64,000 nt of DNA from Azoarcus sp. (GCA_031268195.1 JAIRXQ010000025.1:1-64000); one strand, 5' to 3'. Counted from the first letter of the stretch, positions 53,804 to 61,246 are shown. Numbers and translations: made by a program. Notes: generated from the letters alone by a model not told the origin.

Positions 53804-53811
53804 GACTGAAA

Positions 53812-53833
53812 AAAACGCCCCGAGGGGCGTTTT
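53812..53833 (+). terminator. rho-independent terminator after typA
   Basis: AAAACGCCCC-ga-GGGGCGTTTT. Confidence 0.85.
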
Positions 53834-53854
53834 CCTTTTGGGGAAAGGCAAGCT

Positions 53855-54088
53855 TCAACCCCATATGTCATGATACGGATCGATCCTGTACTCAGGCTGC
53901 GACCAGTCAAACGCCGGACGCGGAGGCGCCACATATACTGGCGGGCAGTAAACTGGCGGATAGTACACCGGTGGAGGAGGAATGTAAACCGGCGGGTGGT
54001 ATACCGGCGGCGCAGGAACGTACACAGGCGGCAGACAAATCGGCAGAACCTTGATGAGTCCGTAGCCAAAACCAAAACCACAACACAT
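53855..54088 (-). CDS. small Pro/Tyr/Val-rich PPVY-repeat protein
   Basis: 77 aa MCCGFGFGYGLIKVLPICLPPVYVPAPPVYHPPVYIPPPPVYYPPVYCPPVYVAPPRPAFDWSQPEYRIDPYHDIWG; strong SD (AAGGAGGTCATC-ATG). Confidence 0.7.
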   Translation of the reverse strand: MCCGFGFGYGLIKVLPICLPPVYVPAPPVYHPPVYIPPPPVYYPPVYCPPVYVAPPRPAFDWSQPEYRIDPYHDIWG

Positions 54089-54318: not shown

Positions 54319-54714
54319 TCACACTTTTTCGGGGTGCGGCCCCAAGCCGGGATACGTGCGCCAGATGTCGCGGCGATGAACGTCTACCGGACGAAATGCT
54401 TCCAACAAACGCGCATACGCCATTTCGGCGGCGTCGCGGTTGTCGCGGCTGAAATTGCAGACGTAGAGATCGAGCGTCACCGCACCCTGTTCTGGCCAAG
54501 TGTGAACCGTCAGATGCGATTCAGCCAGAATCACCGCGCCCGTCGCCCCAGCGGGCGCAGCGGGAAGGCCGAAAGCATGGAACAACTGGCCGACGACGGT
54601 CAACCCTGCCTCCCGGCAAGCCGACACGCACAACACCTCCAGCGCGCGGGTCGATGCCATCGCCTCGACGGCAGCGCACTGCCCGAATTCCGCCAGAATG
54701 TGCAGCCCTTCCAT
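54319..54714 (-). CDS. speD: S-adenosylmethionine decarboxylase proenzyme (class 1b-like)
   Basis: GLHILAEFGQCAAVEA, AESHLTVHTWPEQGAVTLDLYVCNF (Glu-Ser processing site). ATG at 54714. Confidence 0.92.
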   Translation of the reverse strand: MEGLHILAEFGQCAAVEAMASTRALEVLCVSACREAGLTVVGQLFHAFGLPAAPAGATGAVILAESHLTVHTWPEQGAVTLDLYVCNFSRDNRDAAEMAYARLLEAFRPVDVHRRDIWRTYPGLGPHPEKV

Positions 54715-54716
54715 TT

Positions 54717-56369
54717 TCAGGTCAACCTCGTACGCAAATGCCCGCTGGCCGCCAGCACGTCCTCGGCGGCGCGCACGCCCCGGTAGTTGGCCTCCTCGAA
54801 CAGGGAAAGGCCGGAGACATCGGCATGGGCGAAACGCACCCGCCCCCATCCGGCCTCCAGCCGCCGCGTTCTGTCCCGAAACCCCGGCAGAGGGCGAGCC
54901 ATGGCATGACCGTGGCGGAACACATCCAGCCGGGTGACGAGATCGTGGATGTCGTGGTGAGCATGCGCCAGTTCCGCGAGCACGGTCCTGGCCCACTCCT
55001 CCCGCGTTCGCTCAAGCAGCAATTGCCGGGCGGCGGCCGGCGCCAGTTCCGGGAAAGCACGGTAATACGTCAGCACCGTCGGCGCCGGCGCCTGACGAAT
55101 GCGCTGATGCGTGGCGACAACGTAGCCCAGCCCCTCGCCATCCTGCAAGACGTTGTCCCAGGCGAGTTCTGCTCCTGCTCCCGGCGCGGGCGGCGCTTTC
55201 AGGCTCAGATTGGCGACGAGCCAGGGCGCATGGCTGACGGCGGCAATGTCTTTGGCAAGGTCGGCGGGCAGAGCGCTTGCCACGTGCGGCAACAGGAAAA
55301 GCGGTGCGGCCCAGATGATGTGCCGGGCGCGATAACGCAGGCTCACGCCCCGCGCCCGATCCCATGCCTCGACCTCGCAGCCGCCACTGCTCTGGCGAAG
55401 CGCGTAGACGGCTTGCCCGCTATGGAAAGAAACCGCGCCCGGCGAGCGCGCGATCTGCCGCTGTAGACCGTCGACGAGCCAGCCGTTGCCTTCGGGCGCG
55501 GTCAACACGGCTTCTCCCGCCTCGCCGCCCCAACCGGCGCGGCAGGCAAAATAATGTACCCCCGCCCATGCCGAAACCTTGTCGTGCCCCGTACCGTAGT
55601 CGTCCCGGCAAGCGTAATCGACGTACCAGTGCAGCGACGGCGCATCGAACCCCTCGCCGAGCATCCAGTCGCGCATGGCGAGGCGATCCAGCGCCGCCCA
55701 TTCCGGCGCATCGCCACAATAGGCCAGCGGCAGGGCGAAGGCGCGCCGACCCGACGCATCGCGGGCATCGCGGAACTGCGCCATGCGCGCGAAAAAACGT
55801 TCCTGCTGTTCCAGCTCTCCCGTGGGGACGCCCAGTCGCGGCAACAACCCTTCCTGCCAGAGGCCGTAGCGATAAAGGCGCTCCTGCGGCGCATGGCACA
55901 GGTAACGCTCGTCGTACTCCGGGCGCGGTGCGTCCGCCGCGCCGCGCAACACGCCGAGCTCGGCCAGCAGGGCGCGCACTGCCCGCGCCTCCTGATTTGG
56001 CAGCGGCAGGTAATGCGCACCGAGCGGATAGCGGCAAATGGCGTTCTCACCGTAGCGGGCATTGCCACCGGGACGGTCTTCCAGTTCCAGAATGGCAAGA
56101 GGGTTCCTGGCGGCGCCGAATTCCGCTTCGTTCCGGCACAGACGCCAGGCAGCGGACAAGCCGCCGATGCCGGCGCCGACGATCAGCACCGGCACGTCGA
56201 TTTCCTCCACCGGCGGCGGGAAACCACCGGCGCGCACGCGATGCCCGGCGTCGAGGCCACCGCGCGCCAATTCGCCGGGCGGCAGCGCGGGGGGCGCGGG
56301 CGCGCATCCCGGCAGCGCCCCCGCCAGTCCCGCCGCGCCGCACCCGGCCAGAAAATCGCGCCGTTTCAC
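54717..56369 (-). CDS. FAD-dependent amine-oxidase-like oxidoreductase with twin-arginine signal
   Basis: VKRRDFLAGCGAAGLAGALPGCAP (Tat-like RR); VPVLIVGAGIGGLSAAWRLCRNE dinucleotide-binding motif; GTG start overlapping the upstream gene stop. Confidence 0.85.
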   Translation of the reverse strand: MKRRDFLAGCGAAGLAGALPGCAPAPPALPPGELARGGLDAGHRVRAGGFPPPVEEIDVPVLIVGAGIGGLSAAWRLCRNEAEFGAARNPLAILELEDRPGGNARYGENAICRYPLGAHYLPLPNQEARAVRALLAELGVLRGAADAPRPEYDERYLCHAPQERLYRYGLWQEGLLPRLGVPTGELEQQERFFARMAQFRDARDASGRRAFALPLAYCGDAPEWAALDRLAMRDWMLGEGFDAPSLHWYVDYACRDDYGTGHDKVSAWAGVHYFACRAGWGGEAGEAVLTAPEGNGWLVDGLQRQIARSPGAVSFHSGQAVYALRQSSGGCEVEAWDRARGVSLRYRARHIIWAAPLFLLPHVASALPADLAKDIAAVSHAPWLVANLSLKAPPAPGAGAELAWDNVLQDGEGLGYVVATHQRIRQAPAPTVLTYYRAFPELAPAAARQLLLERTREEWARTVLAELAHAHHDIHDLVTRLDVFRHGHAMARPLPGFRDRTRRLEAGWGRVRFAHADVSGLSLFEEANYRGVRAAEDVLAASGHLRTRLT

Positions 56370-57919
56370 TGCGGGCCCCCCGCTTCCCGCCATTCGTCCT
56401 CGAAAACGCGCACCAGCCCTTGTTCGTCGAGCCGATTGGGTTCGGCGGGCACGCGGGACATGTCGCCGGGAAAATGGAACAGATCCGCCGTACCCGCCAC
56501 GGTAAGGAAACGCAGTCCTTGCGGATAAGCCGCAGGCAGCGTGGGCGTCTCCTCGCCCGCCAGCACGTAGCCCCATTCGCCGAAACTGGGCACGAGCGCG
56601 TGGTACGGCGCGGTTTTCAGCCCCACGGCATCGAGCGTGGCGACGATCGTCCAAAACGAGCGGCGCGCGTAGTAAGGCGAAGTGGATTGCACGACGAGAC
56701 GCCCGCCCGGCGCGAGGTGCTGTTTTACGAGGCGGTAGAACCCGGTCGAATAGAGTTTGCCGAGCGCGAAGCTGGACGGATCGGGAAAATCCGCGACGAT
56801 GAAATCGAAGGTGTCCACATGTTCTTCGAGCCAGCGCGCCGCATCGTCATTGACGATCCGCACGCGCGCATCGTTCAAAGCGCCGCCGTTCAATTGCACG
56901 AGCAACGGCGCGCTGGAGAACAGCCGCGTCATGGCCGGATCGAGATCGACCAGCACGATTGATTCGATTTGCGGGTAGCGCAGAATCTCCCGCAGTGCGA
57001 AACCGTCGCCGCCGCCCATCACCAGCACTTTGCGCGCACGCGGCAACGTCGCCAGACCCGGATGCACGAGCGCCTCGTGGTAGCGGTATTCGTCGCGCGA
57101 GGAGAATTGCAGGTTCCGGTTCAGGAACAGACGCACCTCGTTACGCCAGCGAGTGACGACGATGCGCTGATACGATGAATCTTCCGCGTGAATCACCACG
57201 TCGCCGTAAATCCAGCCCTCGGCGGCGTCCGCAATTTTCCCGGCGGCAACGAAACCGCCCAGCAGCAGGGCGAAGCAACTCCACGCCAAAATGGACAGCT
57301 TGCGACGGCGGGCGCCAAACAGGCGCAGCGCCCAGAGCGCCACGGCAACATTGAGCAGGCCGAACAGCAGCCCTGAGCGCATGAGCCCCAGCCGCGGCAC
57401 CAGCAGCAGCGGAAAAGCGAGCGAAACCGCAAGCGCGCCGAGGTAATCCACCGCCAGCACGCGGGACACCAGATCGCGGAAACGCACTTCCCGTTTCAGG
57501 ATGCGCATGACGAGCGGAATTTCCAGCCCGACCAGCACCCCCACGGCCAGCACCGACAAATAAAGCAGCCCCCGGAATGGCGCGGAATGCGCGGCGAAGG
57601 CGAGGAACAGCCCCATCGCGGTGAAGCCGCCGAGCATGCCGACGGCGAGTTCGACCTCCACGAAGCGCCGCGCCAGATCGCCGCCGATGTAGCGGGAGAG
57701 CCACGAGCCGATCCCCATCGCGAACAGATAAGCGCCGATCACCGTGGAGAACTGCGTAATGGAGTCCCCGAGCAGATAACTCGCCAGCGCCGCCGCCACC
57801 AGCTCGTAGGCGAGGCCGCAGGAGGCAATGACGAACACCGACGCCAGCAACGCGTGTTGCAGGCGCGCGGGCACGCGGGACTCGAACGCCACCGCGCCGC
57901 CGAAGCCGGAATCGCTCAA
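56366..57919 (-). CDS. multi-TM spermidine-synthase-like (aminopropyltransferase fold) membrane protein
   Basis: About 7 N-terminal TM segments, then SSYQRIVVTRWRNEVRLFLNRNLQFSSRDEYRYHEALVHPGL..VLVMGGGDGFALREILRYPQIESIVLVDLDPAM..VADFPDP. Confidence 0.9.
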   Translation of the reverse strand: MSDSGFGGAVAFESRVPARLQHALLASVFVIASCGLAYELVAAALASYLLGDSITQFSTVIGAYLFAMGIGSWLSRYIGGDLARRFVEVELAVGMLGGFTAMGLFLAFAAHSAPFRGLLYLSVLAVGVLVGLEIPLVMRILKREVRFRDLVSRVLAVDYLGALAVSLAFPLLLVPRLGLMRSGLLFGLLNVAVALWALRLFGARRRKLSILAWSCFALLLGGFVAAGKIADAAEGWIYGDVVIHAEDSSYQRIVVTRWRNEVRLFLNRNLQFSSRDEYRYHEALVHPGLATLPRARKVLVMGGGDGFALREILRYPQIESIVLVDLDPAMTRLFSSAPLLVQLNGGALNDARVRIVNDDAARWLEEHVDTFDFIVADFPDPSSFALGKLYSTGFYRLVKQHLAPGGRLVVQSTSPYYARRSFWTIVATLDAVGLKTAPYHALVPSFGEWGYVLAGEETPTLPAAYPQGLRFLTVAGTADLFHFPGDMSRVPAEPNRLDEQGLVRVFEDEWREAGGPQ

Positions 57920-57929
57920 GACGGCGCCG

Positions 57930-58145
57930 TCAGCCGTGGATCGCGGCGGCGACGATGATGGCCACGCCGAGGCACATCGCCGCGATGACGATGGCCAGCG
58001 GCTGATTTTTGCGTTCGGTGATTTCCAGCCACAACTCCTGCGGCGTCAGCTTGTCCAGAATCAGAAACGCAACCCAGAACACCACGATTCCGAGCACGGA
58101 ATAGATGACGGAGTTGACGAGCATGGACAGATCTAAATTGGGCAT
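57930..58145 (-). CDS. DUF350 domain-containing membrane protein
   Basis: 71 aa; two TM segments; MLVNSVIYSVLGIVVFWVAFLILDKLTPQELWLEITERKNQPLAIVIAAMCLGVAIIVAAAI. Confidence 0.88.
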   Translation of the reverse strand: MPNLDLSMLVNSVIYSVLGIVVFWVAFLILDKLTPQELWLEITERKNQPLAIVIAAMCLGVAIIVAAAIHG

Positions 58146-58158
58146 TGCGCCTCCTTGC

Positions 58159-58332
58159 CTATTTGTGAAAACCGCCGCCGGATGAGCCGGAGTAACCGGA
58201 TTCTAAATCGCTCGCCACGTCGAGGACGCGGAGAGCCACATTCCCCAGGGTTCCCATGAAACTCGAACCATTGATCTGACACATCACGAAAACCGCCAAC
58301 ATTGCGATACCAAAAACAGTGTATGGCTTCAT
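58159..58332 (-). CDS. small single-TM/secreted hypothetical protein with Gly/Ser-rich tail
   Basis: 57 aa MKPYTVFGIAMLAVFVMCQINGSSFMGTLGNVALRVLDVASDLESGYSGSSGGGFHK; tightly packed between DUF4178 and DUF350 genes. Confidence 0.65.
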   Translation of the reverse strand: MKPYTVFGIAMLAVFVMCQINGSSFMGTLGNVALRVLDVASDLESGYSGSSGGGFHK

Positions 58333-58351
58333 GAGCGCGTTTTCCTGTTCG

Positions 58352-60217
58352 CTACCATACCCGCCACCTCGCCAGCACCGCGAGAGGCCACGCGGCAAGC
58401 ACGAACAGGCATGCGAAAAAGTTCGACCACAGCACCCCGCGCCGGCGCACGGCCAGCGACGATGTGCTACGAATATCCGAATACGCCACCTTCAACGATG
58501 CCGCCCCGCCGATGCGCTCCACGACCAGCCGCCAGTGGCCCGCCGGAACACTGTCGAAAACCGCGCGACGCACAAGCCGGCTCACCTCCGCCGCGCCATC
58601 GAGCGTGGCGTAACGGCTCAGCGTCACCTTCTGCCGCGGTGTGCTTCGTCCACTGTCTTCTTCGACCAGCGAGATGCCGAGCTCGATCCAGTCATCGTCG
58701 AGTGCTTCCGCCCGGATATCCACTTCCAGCGAAGCCGAATGATCCAGGGAAAAAGGTTTCGAAAGCGAAGTCGTAAAATCAGCGGAGGGGATCAGCGGCA
58801 TGTCTACACTGGCCAAATCCCGCGCATTGCCGAACGACAACACGAAAATCACTTGCAACAAAGCGAGAATCGCGGCGAGAACCCCGAAATGCAACCACAT
58901 CGGGCGGTATCTGGCGCCGCCCTGCGCGGCGGAGCGCTGGCCCCCGAGCCCAACCTCGATCCGCGCCCGGCTGAACGCAGCCTTCACGTCCCGCGCCGGG
59001 ATGGGTTCGGCGAGACTCCAGGTGATTTCCTTGCCGGTTCGCTCGGCGCTCAGCGTCGACGACAGCGAGACGTAATCGGTAATGAAGACTTCCTCTCCAA
59101 CCCGTACCCGCCAGGTGAATTCGCCGAGCACGTAGTCCACATAACCCGTGTAGCTGGCGGAGCGCTCGAATTTTTGTCCGCGACAAACGACAGCCGCCCC
59201 TGCACGGGCAGGCAGCTCTTCCAGGACATCCACCAGACTCCAGCGGGTGTTGTAGCAGGTCAGCCACCGATATCCCGGTTTTCCGACCCGGGCCAGCAAA
59301 TATTCATGCCAATCTTCGCGTTCGCCCTCCTCAAGCGAGTGGCGAGCCATGAAACCGATTACTTCCAGTTTCTCGCCCCGAAACATACCGATCTCGCCAA
59401 TCGGGATCAGAGGCTCGACCTTCCGGCTCGCCTCGATACGGGAAATCAGTTTTTCCGTTTCCGTATCGGTGATCGCACCGCAATGTGCACAGCCGATGGA
59501 CAACACGCCCTCGTGCTTGAGTTCGAGCGGCGCACCGCACTGGGCACAATTCAGCCCCTTGGCTCGGCCTGTCGCCCCGGTGAATCCGGGAATGTCCTCG
59601 CGCAGATTGCGCCATTGCAGACTGGCAAAATCGACCGCTTCGCCCACGAAAAACAGGGGATTTGCCGCATCGTCGCTGTAATCCAGCGTTGCCAACCGTT
59701 TTCCGGCGCGTAAATCCACGACCGGCGCCGGATAGCCGCCGCCGACCCGGAACGGCAGCTCGCCCTCTCCGGCAACGCATACGGCGCGCTCGACATTGCT
59801 GACCGTCCAGGCGGTTCCGGCCAAAACGAACTCGTTGCCGGGACGCACCGCCGAAAAAGCGGGCGACCCCGTGGGCGAGGCGCACGGAAAAGTAAGCGCG
59901 TAAGCGCCGCCCGCCTCGGACAGCCACCCCGCGCCCGCATCGTCGAAAAGCAAAAACCATTCATTCCACAGTCCCGCCTCGTACTGGAGCTGGATGCGCC
60001 CCACCACGGTGAAGCACCTGCCGCCGTACACGCCCTGCGCATCGACCCGCAGCCGGGAGCGATCCTCGGCCAGTTCCGCCATCTTGCCCAAATTCTCGAT
60101 CTTGCCGTCGAGATCGAGGAGCGTCGCCCGGCAGTATTCGCAAACGGCCAGGACGGAAACAGCGCTCCGCAAGCGCACCGGAGCGCCGCAGGATGGGCAA
60201 TTCGCCATGCGGGCCAT
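58352..60217 (-). CDS. DUF4178 domain-containing protein, two zinc-ribbon/DUF4178 modules plus TM
   Basis: CPSCGAPVRLRSAVSVLAVCEYC and CAQCGAPLELKHEGVLSIGCAHCG ribbons; C-terminal TM segments. Confidence 0.85.
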   Translation of the reverse strand: MARMANCPSCGAPVRLRSAVSVLAVCEYCRATLLDLDGKIENLGKMAELAEDRSRLRVDAQGVYGGRCFTVVGRIQLQYEAGLWNEWFLLFDDAGAGWLSEAGGAYALTFPCASPTGSPAFSAVRPGNEFVLAGTAWTVSNVERAVCVAGEGELPFRVGGGYPAPVVDLRAGKRLATLDYSDDAANPLFFVGEAVDFASLQWRNLREDIPGFTGATGRAKGLNCAQCGAPLELKHEGVLSIGCAHCGAITDTETEKLISRIEASRKVEPLIPIGEIGMFRGEKLEVIGFMARHSLEEGEREDWHEYLLARVGKPGYRWLTCYNTRWSLVDVLEELPARAGAAVVCRGQKFERSASYTGYVDYVLGEFTWRVRVGEEVFITDYVSLSSTLSAERTGKEITWSLAEPIPARDVKAAFSRARIEVGLGGQRSAAQGGARYRPMWLHFGVLAAILALLQVIFVLSFGNARDLASVDMPLIPSADFTTSLSKPFSLDHSASLEVDIRAEALDDDWIELGISLVEEDSGRSTPRQKVTLSRYATLDGAAEVSRLVRRAVFDSVPAGHWRLVVERIGGAASLKVAYSDIRSTSSLAVRRRGVLWSNFFACLFVLAAWPLAVLARWRVW

Positions 60218-60223
60218 AGAAGT

Positions 60224-61246
60224 TCAGACCAGTTTCTTCAACAGTTCCGTTTTTTTCGCCTCGAACTCTTCCTGGCTCAATATGCCCTTGCCCACCAGCG
60301 CATGCAGCTTCTCCAGCGTGGCCGTCAGCTCATCGGCCAGCGATGCCCCGGCGGCCCGCCCCGCCGGGGCGGGATTCGTCTCCTGCGCGGCGCGGGTCAT
60401 GCCCTGTGCCATCGCCTGCCCCATCGCCAGCCCCACGCCGATGCCGACTCCCGCGCCCGCCGCGCCGCCCGGATTTTGCGCCGCCAGCGGAATACTGGCC
60501 GCGGTCTGGTACTGGGTATAACGGTTCAGATCGCCCGCCAGTTCCACGCCGATGCGGGCATCGAGCGCCTTTTGCAGTTCCTCGGGCAGCGAAATGTTCT
60601 GTACTACGAAGTTATCGAGCGCCAGCCCGAAACTCGCAAACAACGGCGCGACCTTTTCCCCGAGCGCCTTGCCGAATTCCTCCTGGTTGGCCGCCATGTC
60701 GAGAAACGGCACGCGGCTCGTCCCGAACAAATCGGCGATATGGCCGATGATGGTGTTGCGCAGCTGGCCTTCCAGTTCGTCCGACGTGTAGCGCCCCACC
60801 GTTCCGGAGACACTCATGTGGAACAGCGCGGGATCGACGAGATGGTACGAATAAATCCCGAACGCCCGCAGGCGCACCGCGCCGAAATCCGCATCCCGCA
60901 CCGTTACCGGGTTGGCCGTGCCCCATTTGCGGTCGAGCCGCTGGCGGGTGCTGAAGAAATAGACATCGGACTTGAAGGGCGACTCGAACAGCTTGTCCCA
61001 GTTCTCCAGGCTGGTGAGTACCGGCAGCGTTTGCGTGGTGAGCTTGAAGGTTCCCGGCCCGAACACATCGGCGAGCCGGCCCTCATTGACGAGGGCCGCC
61101 TTTTGCGACTCGCGCACGACCAGCGTGGCGCCATTCTGGATTTCCATGTCCTGCATGGGAAAGCGCCAGGCCATGACCTCGCCGTCATCCTCCACGCATT
61201 GAATGACGTCGATAAACTGCTTTTTGATGAAATCCATCAGCGACAT
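60224..61246 (-). CDS. SPFH domain protein (YdjI/virion-core-like) with C-terminal SHOCT-like domain
   Basis: MSLMDFIKKQFIDVIQCVEDDGEVMAWRFPMQDMEIQNGATLVVRESQKAALVNEGRLADVFGPGTFKL...; LEKLHALVGKGILSQEEFEAKKTELLKKL. Confidence 0.9.
   Translation of the reverse strand: MSLMDFIKKQFIDVIQCVEDDGEVMAWRFPMQDMEIQNGATLVVRESQKAALVNEGRLADVFGPGTFKLTTQTLPVLTSLENWDKLFESPFKSDVYFFSTRQRLDRKWGTANPVTVRDADFGAVRLRAFGIYSYHLVDPALFHMSVSGTVGRYTSDELEGQLRNTIIGHIADLFGTSRVPFLDMAANQEEFGKALGEKVAPLFASFGLALDNFVVQNISLPEELQKALDARIGVELAGDLNRYTQYQTAASIPLAAQNPGGAAGAGVGIGVGLAMGQAMAQGMTRAAQETNPAPAGRAAGASLADELTATLEKLHALVGKGILSQEEFEAKKTELLKKLV

Follow-up and report, generated by a model that had tools for sequence, protein, structure and literature searches.

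The subject of this analysis is a cluster of seven genes on the minus strand (54319-61246) of a 64,000-nucleotide stretch of DNA from Azoarcus sp. (GCA_031268195.1 JAIRXQ010000025.1:1-64000), referred to here as the window. The cluster pairs SpeD, an S-adenosylmethionine (AdoMet) decarboxylase, with a polyamine aminopropyltransferase (APT) that carries seven transmembrane (TM) helices. In relatives of this cluster we observed a membrane-anchored tail that ended in lysine in all 86 cases verified at the DNA level. We propose that the predicted operon encodes an extracytoplasmic protein-modification system, in which an outward-facing APT would aminopropylate the C-terminal lysine of the anchored tail, using decarboxylated AdoMet (dcAdoMet) from SpeD, with optional oxidation by a flavoenzyme. 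On balance we judge this reading probable, though narrowly so.

All seven open reading frames (ORFs) were found at the coordinates given in the initial annotation, and family profile matches agreed with its domain calls. Its spacing was correct for the 4-nt overlap and the final 2-nt gap, whereas the first four gaps measured 6, 19, 13 and 10 nt, each one less than it had counted (a matter of counting convention). In gene order, with lengths in amino acids (aa), the features are as follows.

60224-61246, minus strand: SPFH/Band_7_1 protein with C-terminal SHOCT, 340 aa (Pfam Band_7_1, 1.8e-76; SHOCT, 3.2e-07)
58352-60217, minus strand: DUF4178 protein with zinc-ribbon-like segments and C-terminal TM segments, 621 aa (DUF4178, 4e-26)
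58159-58332, minus strand: small membrane peptide with a Ser/Gly-rich tail ending ...SGSSGGGFHK, 57 aa (slot conservation, dN/dS)
58159-58167, minus strand: terminal His-Lys codons and stop, a conserved feature of the 57-aa peptide (translation, tail census)
57930-58145, minus strand: DUF350 protein, two-TM single-repeat form, 71 aa (Pfam DUF350, 3.1e-13)
56366-57919, minus strand: seven-TM polyamine aminopropyltransferase, 517 aa (NF002956, 1.8e-199)
54717-56369, minus strand: amine-oxidase-fold protein of the flavin adenine dinucleotide (FAD) type, predicted to be exported by a Tat-like or lipoprotein signal, 550 aa (Amino_oxidase, 4.9e-12)
54319-54714, minus strand: SpeD, class 1b AdoMet decarboxylase proenzyme (AdoMet_dc, 2.3e-25)

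The identical order (SPFH, DUF4178, small peptide, DUF350, APT, FAD protein, SpeD) recurs in Zoogloeaceae/Rhodocyclaceae-type genomes and on Novosphingobium plasmids, and the cluster is therefore far beyond chance. Searching genome contigs with the FAD protein gave 35 loci, mainly from Zoogloeaceae/Rhodocyclaceae-type betaproteobacteria and additionally from Pontibacter; plasmid records contributed loci from Novosphingobium, Burkholderia and Gemmatirosa. Full-length APT was present in 36 of 299 sampled Pseudomonadota genomes and in 21 of 297 from Bacteroidota. Note that the C. glutamicum control genome also scored in the APT search. Around the APT, DUF350 was constant and DUF4178 and SpeD were usual, with SPFH, FAD protein and PspA as variable members. 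Thus, the linkage of the cluster genes is conserved, as had been anticipated. Scans of the cluster for promoters and terminators gave results no better than shuffled sequence. On the Alteromonas mediterranea plasmid pAMCP48-600 (locus L114) the system is plasmid-borne, and SpeD and DUF4178 are separated by a TelA-like 'toxic anion resistance' gene.

The 57-aa peptide itself matched no family. In relatives, the slot between DUF4178 and DUF350 encodes a peptide of ~46-100 aa that has a single hydrophobic segment near its N-terminus and a tail that varies. The 86 verified tails, from alpha-, beta- and gammaproteobacteria, Bacteroidota and one Gemmatimonadota plasmid, ended in HK (54), GK (26), VK (4) or IK (2). 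By comparison, only 4 of 304 control C-termini (SpeD, FAD protein, APT, SPFH and DUF350 of the same loci) were lysine. The residues preceding the lysine differed by lineage: betaproteobacterial tails ended in YHK, FHK or SHK, sphingomonad tails in THK or SHK, Bacteroidota tails in YHK, QHK or HHK, tails of Rhodobacter-type operons in RVK or RIK, and those of other alphaproteobacteria in GGK or SGK. Pairwise ratios of nonsynonymous to synonymous substitution (dN/dS) for the small ORF among relatives were 0.08-0.44, indicating that it is a real gene under purifying selection. The suggestion that the 57-aa gene is a lineage-specific extra can thus be discarded; with its conserved lysine end and its purifying selection, it is among the most constant parts of the operon.

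Three unrelated anchors carry the lysine-ended tail, namely a stand-alone TM peptide, a fusion to DUF4178 and a larger protein. In six loci, from Burkholderiales (L075, L077, L079, L082), L088 and the Bacteroidota locus L143, DUF4178 continues at its C-terminus into a TM segment plus tail, and these tails end in GGSHK, GGGHK, GGAHK or SGSHK. In gammaproteobacterial PspA-type operons and in Bacteroidota operons without the FAD gene, the slot holds a protein, mostly of 240-576 aa and in most cases with a clear lipobox, that ends in RGK, GGK, SGK or FGK. Among 95 APT loci, the tail was found in the locus in 79 and beside a DUF4178 gene elsewhere in the genome in 6. The rest comprised loci cut by a contig end (3), duplicates (3), loci with a Gly-Gly end and a ligase (2), and two in which no tail was found near the APT (L103, L106). 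A prediction set beforehand, that a lysine-ended tail would accompany DUF4178 in genomes whose DUF4178 gene falls outside the original hit locus, held in 7 of 7 genomes, with the tail either adjoining or fused. The final census consists of curated tails, as an automated finder that ignored the last three residues also picked up spurious ORFs and DUF4178 C-termini. One collection step used terminal lysine as a criterion; the others, including the seven-genome test, did not.

Two seeming exceptions are the Bacteroidota loci L152 and L153, where a single-TM protein with the end STRSYGG lies beside SpeD and a GSP_synth ligase (E 3.9e-81 and 9.9e-76, respectively). Partners of this ligase family have similar ends in E. 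coli YgiB (SMGG) and YjfM (HWGG) and in a Rhizobium DUF1190 protein (SFGG). In a Pseudomonadota ligase sample of ~20 loci with a readable low-complexity partner, the final residue was Gly in ~14, Ser in ~6 and Lys in none. Thus, the terminal residue of the tail follows the chemistry of the enzyme, with Gly or Ser beside the ligase and Lys beside the APT. More generally, GSP_synth-type ligases (L118, L119, L160, L152, L153, L206-L226) have exported or TM proteins as partners, whose low-complexity tails terminate in Gly (mainly as Gly-Gly) or in Ser. In E. coli, YgiC and YjfC have been described by Pederick et al. 2023 (cited in PMC12568646) as peptide-spermidine ligases, and the Gly/Ser-ended partner tails, including those of YgiB and YjfM, are likely the C-terminal target of such a ligase.

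These observations bear on whether the acceptor is a protein or, as the initial annotation had it, a lipid or envelope substrate. The APT might aminopropylate a lipid or another small envelope molecule, with the lysine tail as an accessory or docking subunit. The APT is membrane-integral in its structural model, and in the relevant passages of a published genome-context study the substrate is left open as 'aminopropylation of other substrates' (PMC11237479). However, a lipid or small-molecule acceptor leaves unexplained why the C-terminal lysine is the only constant residue of the tail, in unrelated anchors, and why the end is Gly or Ser where an amide ligase is present. We therefore consider this alternative unlikely, though a lipid could still be the target; a protein tail with its C-terminal lysine as acceptor agrees better with the data.

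The APT scored above the curated cut-off of NF002956/PRK03612 over its full length (663.5 versus 472 bits, residues 15-512) but below the TIGR00417 SpeE equivalog cut-off (128.3 versus 249.55 bits). Its AlphaFold2 model (mean predicted local distance difference test score, 92.7) shows seven TM helices and, after them, a spermidine-synthase domain, which by model comparison is closest to the Thermus polyamine aminopropyltransferase (PDB 1uir, E 3.4e-15). The catalytic motifs are intact: D377, P379, D380 and P381 of the DxxDP motif were invariant in 41 homologues, and the GGGDG motif was conserved at 90% or more. Across 95 homologues, the Lys plus Arg content of the loops was 2.5, 3.4 and 3.4 on the inner side and 0.3, 0.7 and 0.8 on the outer side. 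This alternation suggests that the N-terminus lies in the cytoplasm and the catalytic domain outside. The catalytic domain is also poor in cysteine (0.23 per 100 aa; 51 of 95 homologues have no Cys in it) compared to soluble SpeE-type proteins (1.42 per 100 aa, none of 20 lacking Cys; p=8e-12). Loop charges and Cys depletion together thus predict an extracytoplasmic catalytic domain, a location shared by the lipoprotein form of the tail and by the exported FAD protein. An ordinary soluble SpeE is excluded as the identity of the APT by score, topology and Cys content, although spermidine could still be its product. A role in anti-phage defence was also considered and set aside; padloc returned a single match, 'mads_2', to the methyltransferase-like core of the APT.

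The host genome (2.53 Mb, 95% complete) contains no other SpeD and no other spermidine-synthase-type domain than those of the cluster. It encodes one Orn/Lys/Arg decarboxylase and two further decarboxylases with the Orn_Arg_deC_N fold: one appears to be a diaminopimelate decarboxylase, and the second seems to adjoin an acyl-CoA-ligase-like gene. No match to PF03738, the glutathionylspermidine-synthetase-type ligase, was found in the genome. The solitary SpeD and synthase domain, the Orn/Lys/Arg decarboxylase and the NCBI family name, polyamine aminopropyltransferase, are what would be expected if SpeD and a membrane-tethered spermidine synthase made spermidine from putrescine, with the other genes as scaffolding. 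This is the ordinary spermidine pathway that the initial annotation had named as a possible refutation, and the gene content keeps it in play. Against it stand the APT score (128 versus 250 at the SpeE cut-off), the predicted outward, Cys-poor catalytic domain, and several sampled genomes (e.g. G224, G389) that carry a full seven-TM APT plus separate spermidine-synthase-type matches. We regard this alternative as distinctly unlikely.

The FAD protein exceeded the PF01593 gathering score (46.3 versus 19.8 bits), with a weak Tat signal. Its AlphaFold2 model has an amine-oxidase fold, and the nearest structures were a bacterial monoamine oxidase (8p84, E 4.4e-24), putrescine oxidase and spermidine dehydrogenase. 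The proposal of envelope-side aminopropylation with an exported amine-oxidase-fold partner is thus favoured by APT topology and by the fold of the FAD protein. The notion that the FAD gene is lineage-specific held only in part: the gene is confined to a subset of operons, but this subset spans Beta- and Alphaproteobacteria, Bacteroidota and Gemmatimonadota. The penultimate histidine of the tail tracks this gene. An HK end and the FAD gene occurred together in 51 cases, HK alone in 3, the FAD gene alone in 1 and neither in 31; absence of the gene was checked genome-wide for the three HK-only cases and at the locus level for the 31 with neither. The association was also seen within Bacteroidota (p=0.0015) and within Alphaproteobacteria (p=0.0005), with loci that are not independent. 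This correlation would fit a different function of the C-terminal lysine, as a substrate of the FAD oxidase in the manner of lysyl oxidase, a cap protecting against proteases or a means of recruiting PspA or SPFH, with the APT acting elsewhere. Yet the lysine is kept in operons without FAD protein, SPFH or PspA, and its constant partners are the APT, DUF350 and usually DUF4178, so that we find such a separate role quite improbable.

In the proposed modification of the tail, cytosolic SpeD would decarboxylate AdoMet, and the resulting dcAdoMet would cross the membrane via DUF350 and/or the TM half of the APT. The outward-facing APT would then move the aminopropyl group onto the C-terminal lysine, most likely its epsilon-amine. 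The candidate acceptor in the window is the flexible, membrane-anchored 57-aa peptide ending in GGGFHK. DUF4178 and SPFH may keep the complex membrane-bound. Operons of the FAD subtype add the exported amine-oxidase-fold protein, which may act on the HK tail either ahead of its modification or following it, for instance by forming a reactive aldehyde or by trimming the tail. The system might serve in envelope stabilisation or stress.

Several points weigh against this proposal. The donor route across the membrane and the identity of the acceptor are its weak points, and we know of no precedent for dcAdoMet outside the cytoplasm. Since the host retains an Orn/Lys/Arg decarboxylase, a free diamine acceptor is probably available. 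Some tails hold further Lys or Arg residues, so the terminal lysine could be a recognition signal, and the tail counts are phylogenetically non-independent. In addition, no tail was found near the APT in L103 and L106, and the neighbours of the more distant fused spermidine synthases of archaeal Halorussus are not Lys-ended.

The operon class as such, and the idea of a non-putrescine substrate for the fusion, are already published. Work by Li et al. 2019 reportedly linked AdoMet decarboxylase (AdoMetDC), a fusion of a major facilitator superfamily-type domain with spermidine synthase (SpdSyn), and DUF350, and proposed a non-putrescine substrate, naming none. Such fusions are said to fail to complement an E. 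coli speE mutant and to occur in hosts without spermidine, a further point against the ordinary spermidine pathway. Here, a specific candidate acceptor is put forward.

The link of PspA neighbourhoods to DUF350, DUF4178 and a spermidine-synthase fusion, mentioned in the initial annotation, is indeed in print: the relevant passages of Ravi et al. 2024 (mSystems, PMC11237479) describe PspA-associated 'spermine synthase' operons with a 7TM-SpdSyn fusion, DUF350 and DUF4178. These three are common to the cluster and the second phage shock protein (PSP) group of that study, whereas the CesT/Tir-PspA dyad of the group is missing. The initial annotation saw no PspA, and none is among the seven genes or, as PspA_IM30 matches, anywhere in the genome. 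A variant in the same study shares Band-7 with SHOCT, SpeD (AdoMetDC) and a polyamine-oxidase-like gene with the cluster. Its '2TM' between Band-7 and SHOCT is not obvious in the SPFH protein here, and its GspS-like ATP-grasp ligase has no PF03738 counterpart in the host genome. The passages of Ravi et al. 2024 on these operons (PMC11237479) make no mention of a small peptide or a conserved C-terminal lysine; the 'novel lipoprotein (Ctha_1186)' described there may be the lipoprotein form of the lysine tail.

The E. coli YjfIJKLMC/YgiBC systems resemble the cluster in that DUF350 (YjfL) and an exported DUF1190 lipoprotein with a low-complexity tail adjoin a polyamine-attaching enzyme. They differ in the chemistry: YgiBC/YjfMC combine an ATP-grasp amide ligase with a Gly-Gly tail, and this cluster an aminopropyltransferase with a Lys tail. 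Aminoalkyl groups on lysine side chains are known from deoxyhypusine on eIF5A and from the polyamine-modified lysines of silaffins. In contrast to the tail considered here, these are eukaryotic and are made by other enzymes, and the lysine concerned is not the C-terminal residue of a membrane-anchored tail in bacteria. In the open literature, supplementary tables apart, we found no description of the conserved C-terminal lysine, its three anchors, the Gly/Ser switch or the correlation of HK with the FAD gene.

Genome-context studies have left the substrate of the membrane-fused APT open, and the terminal lysine provides a named, testable candidate. A lysine ends the tail in nearly all complete operons that were examined, with Gly or Ser in its place where an amide ligase is present, which gives a named residue on a named peptide. 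If the proposal is true, it implies a new extracytoplasmic modification of C-terminal lysine and transport of dcAdoMet across the inner membrane. A broader generalization, which we put forward tentatively as somewhat short of probable, is that bacteria widely attach a polyamine-type group to the C-terminus of an anchored flexible tail outside the cytoplasm. The APT/Lys branch would use exported dcAdoMet, perhaps with oxidation, and in the YgiBC/YjfMC branch the terminal Gly would be amidated with a polyamine.

Among the other components, SpeD exceeded the TIGR03330 cut-off marginally (76.9 versus 75.65 bits). Its cleavage motif is intact (ESHLTVHTWPE, aligned to the Thermotoga AdoMetDC), and ESH was present in 57 of 57 homologues. 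SpeD relatives with ornithine or arginine decarboxylase activity are known (PMC10407285); given the pairing with the APT, the gene context favours AdoMet as the substrate here. In four alphaproteobacterial operons (L104, L107, L109, L110) the motif reads ESHILISTWPE or ESHILVSTWPE, with Ser for the second His of ESHxxxHTWPE, a change that may affect activity. SPFH is missing from most Bacteroidota operons and appears to be an optional scaffold. The DUF4178 protein contains two DUF4178 stretches in addition to its zinc-ribbon-like segments.

DUF350 is a candidate membrane partner or dcAdoMet carrier. In Propionivibrio/Accumulibacter-type loci (L018, L019, L021, L023, L024, L029, L030, L033-L035) the slot lacks the two-TM DUF350; instead, a DUF350-like ORF of greater length and divergent sequence is found upstream of SPFH. 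One Propionivibrio genome encodes a 622-aa exported protein between the HK peptide and the APT (L018:5518-7386), which from its sequence may be of the DUF3857/transglutaminase type.

Downstream of SpeD in the window, a 77-aa ORF (53855-54088, minus strand) begins MCCGFGFGYG and continues with Pro/Tyr/Val repeats (PPVYxPPVY), possibly encoding a small envelope protein. It is followed by a GC-rich hairpin and T-run around 53808-53835.

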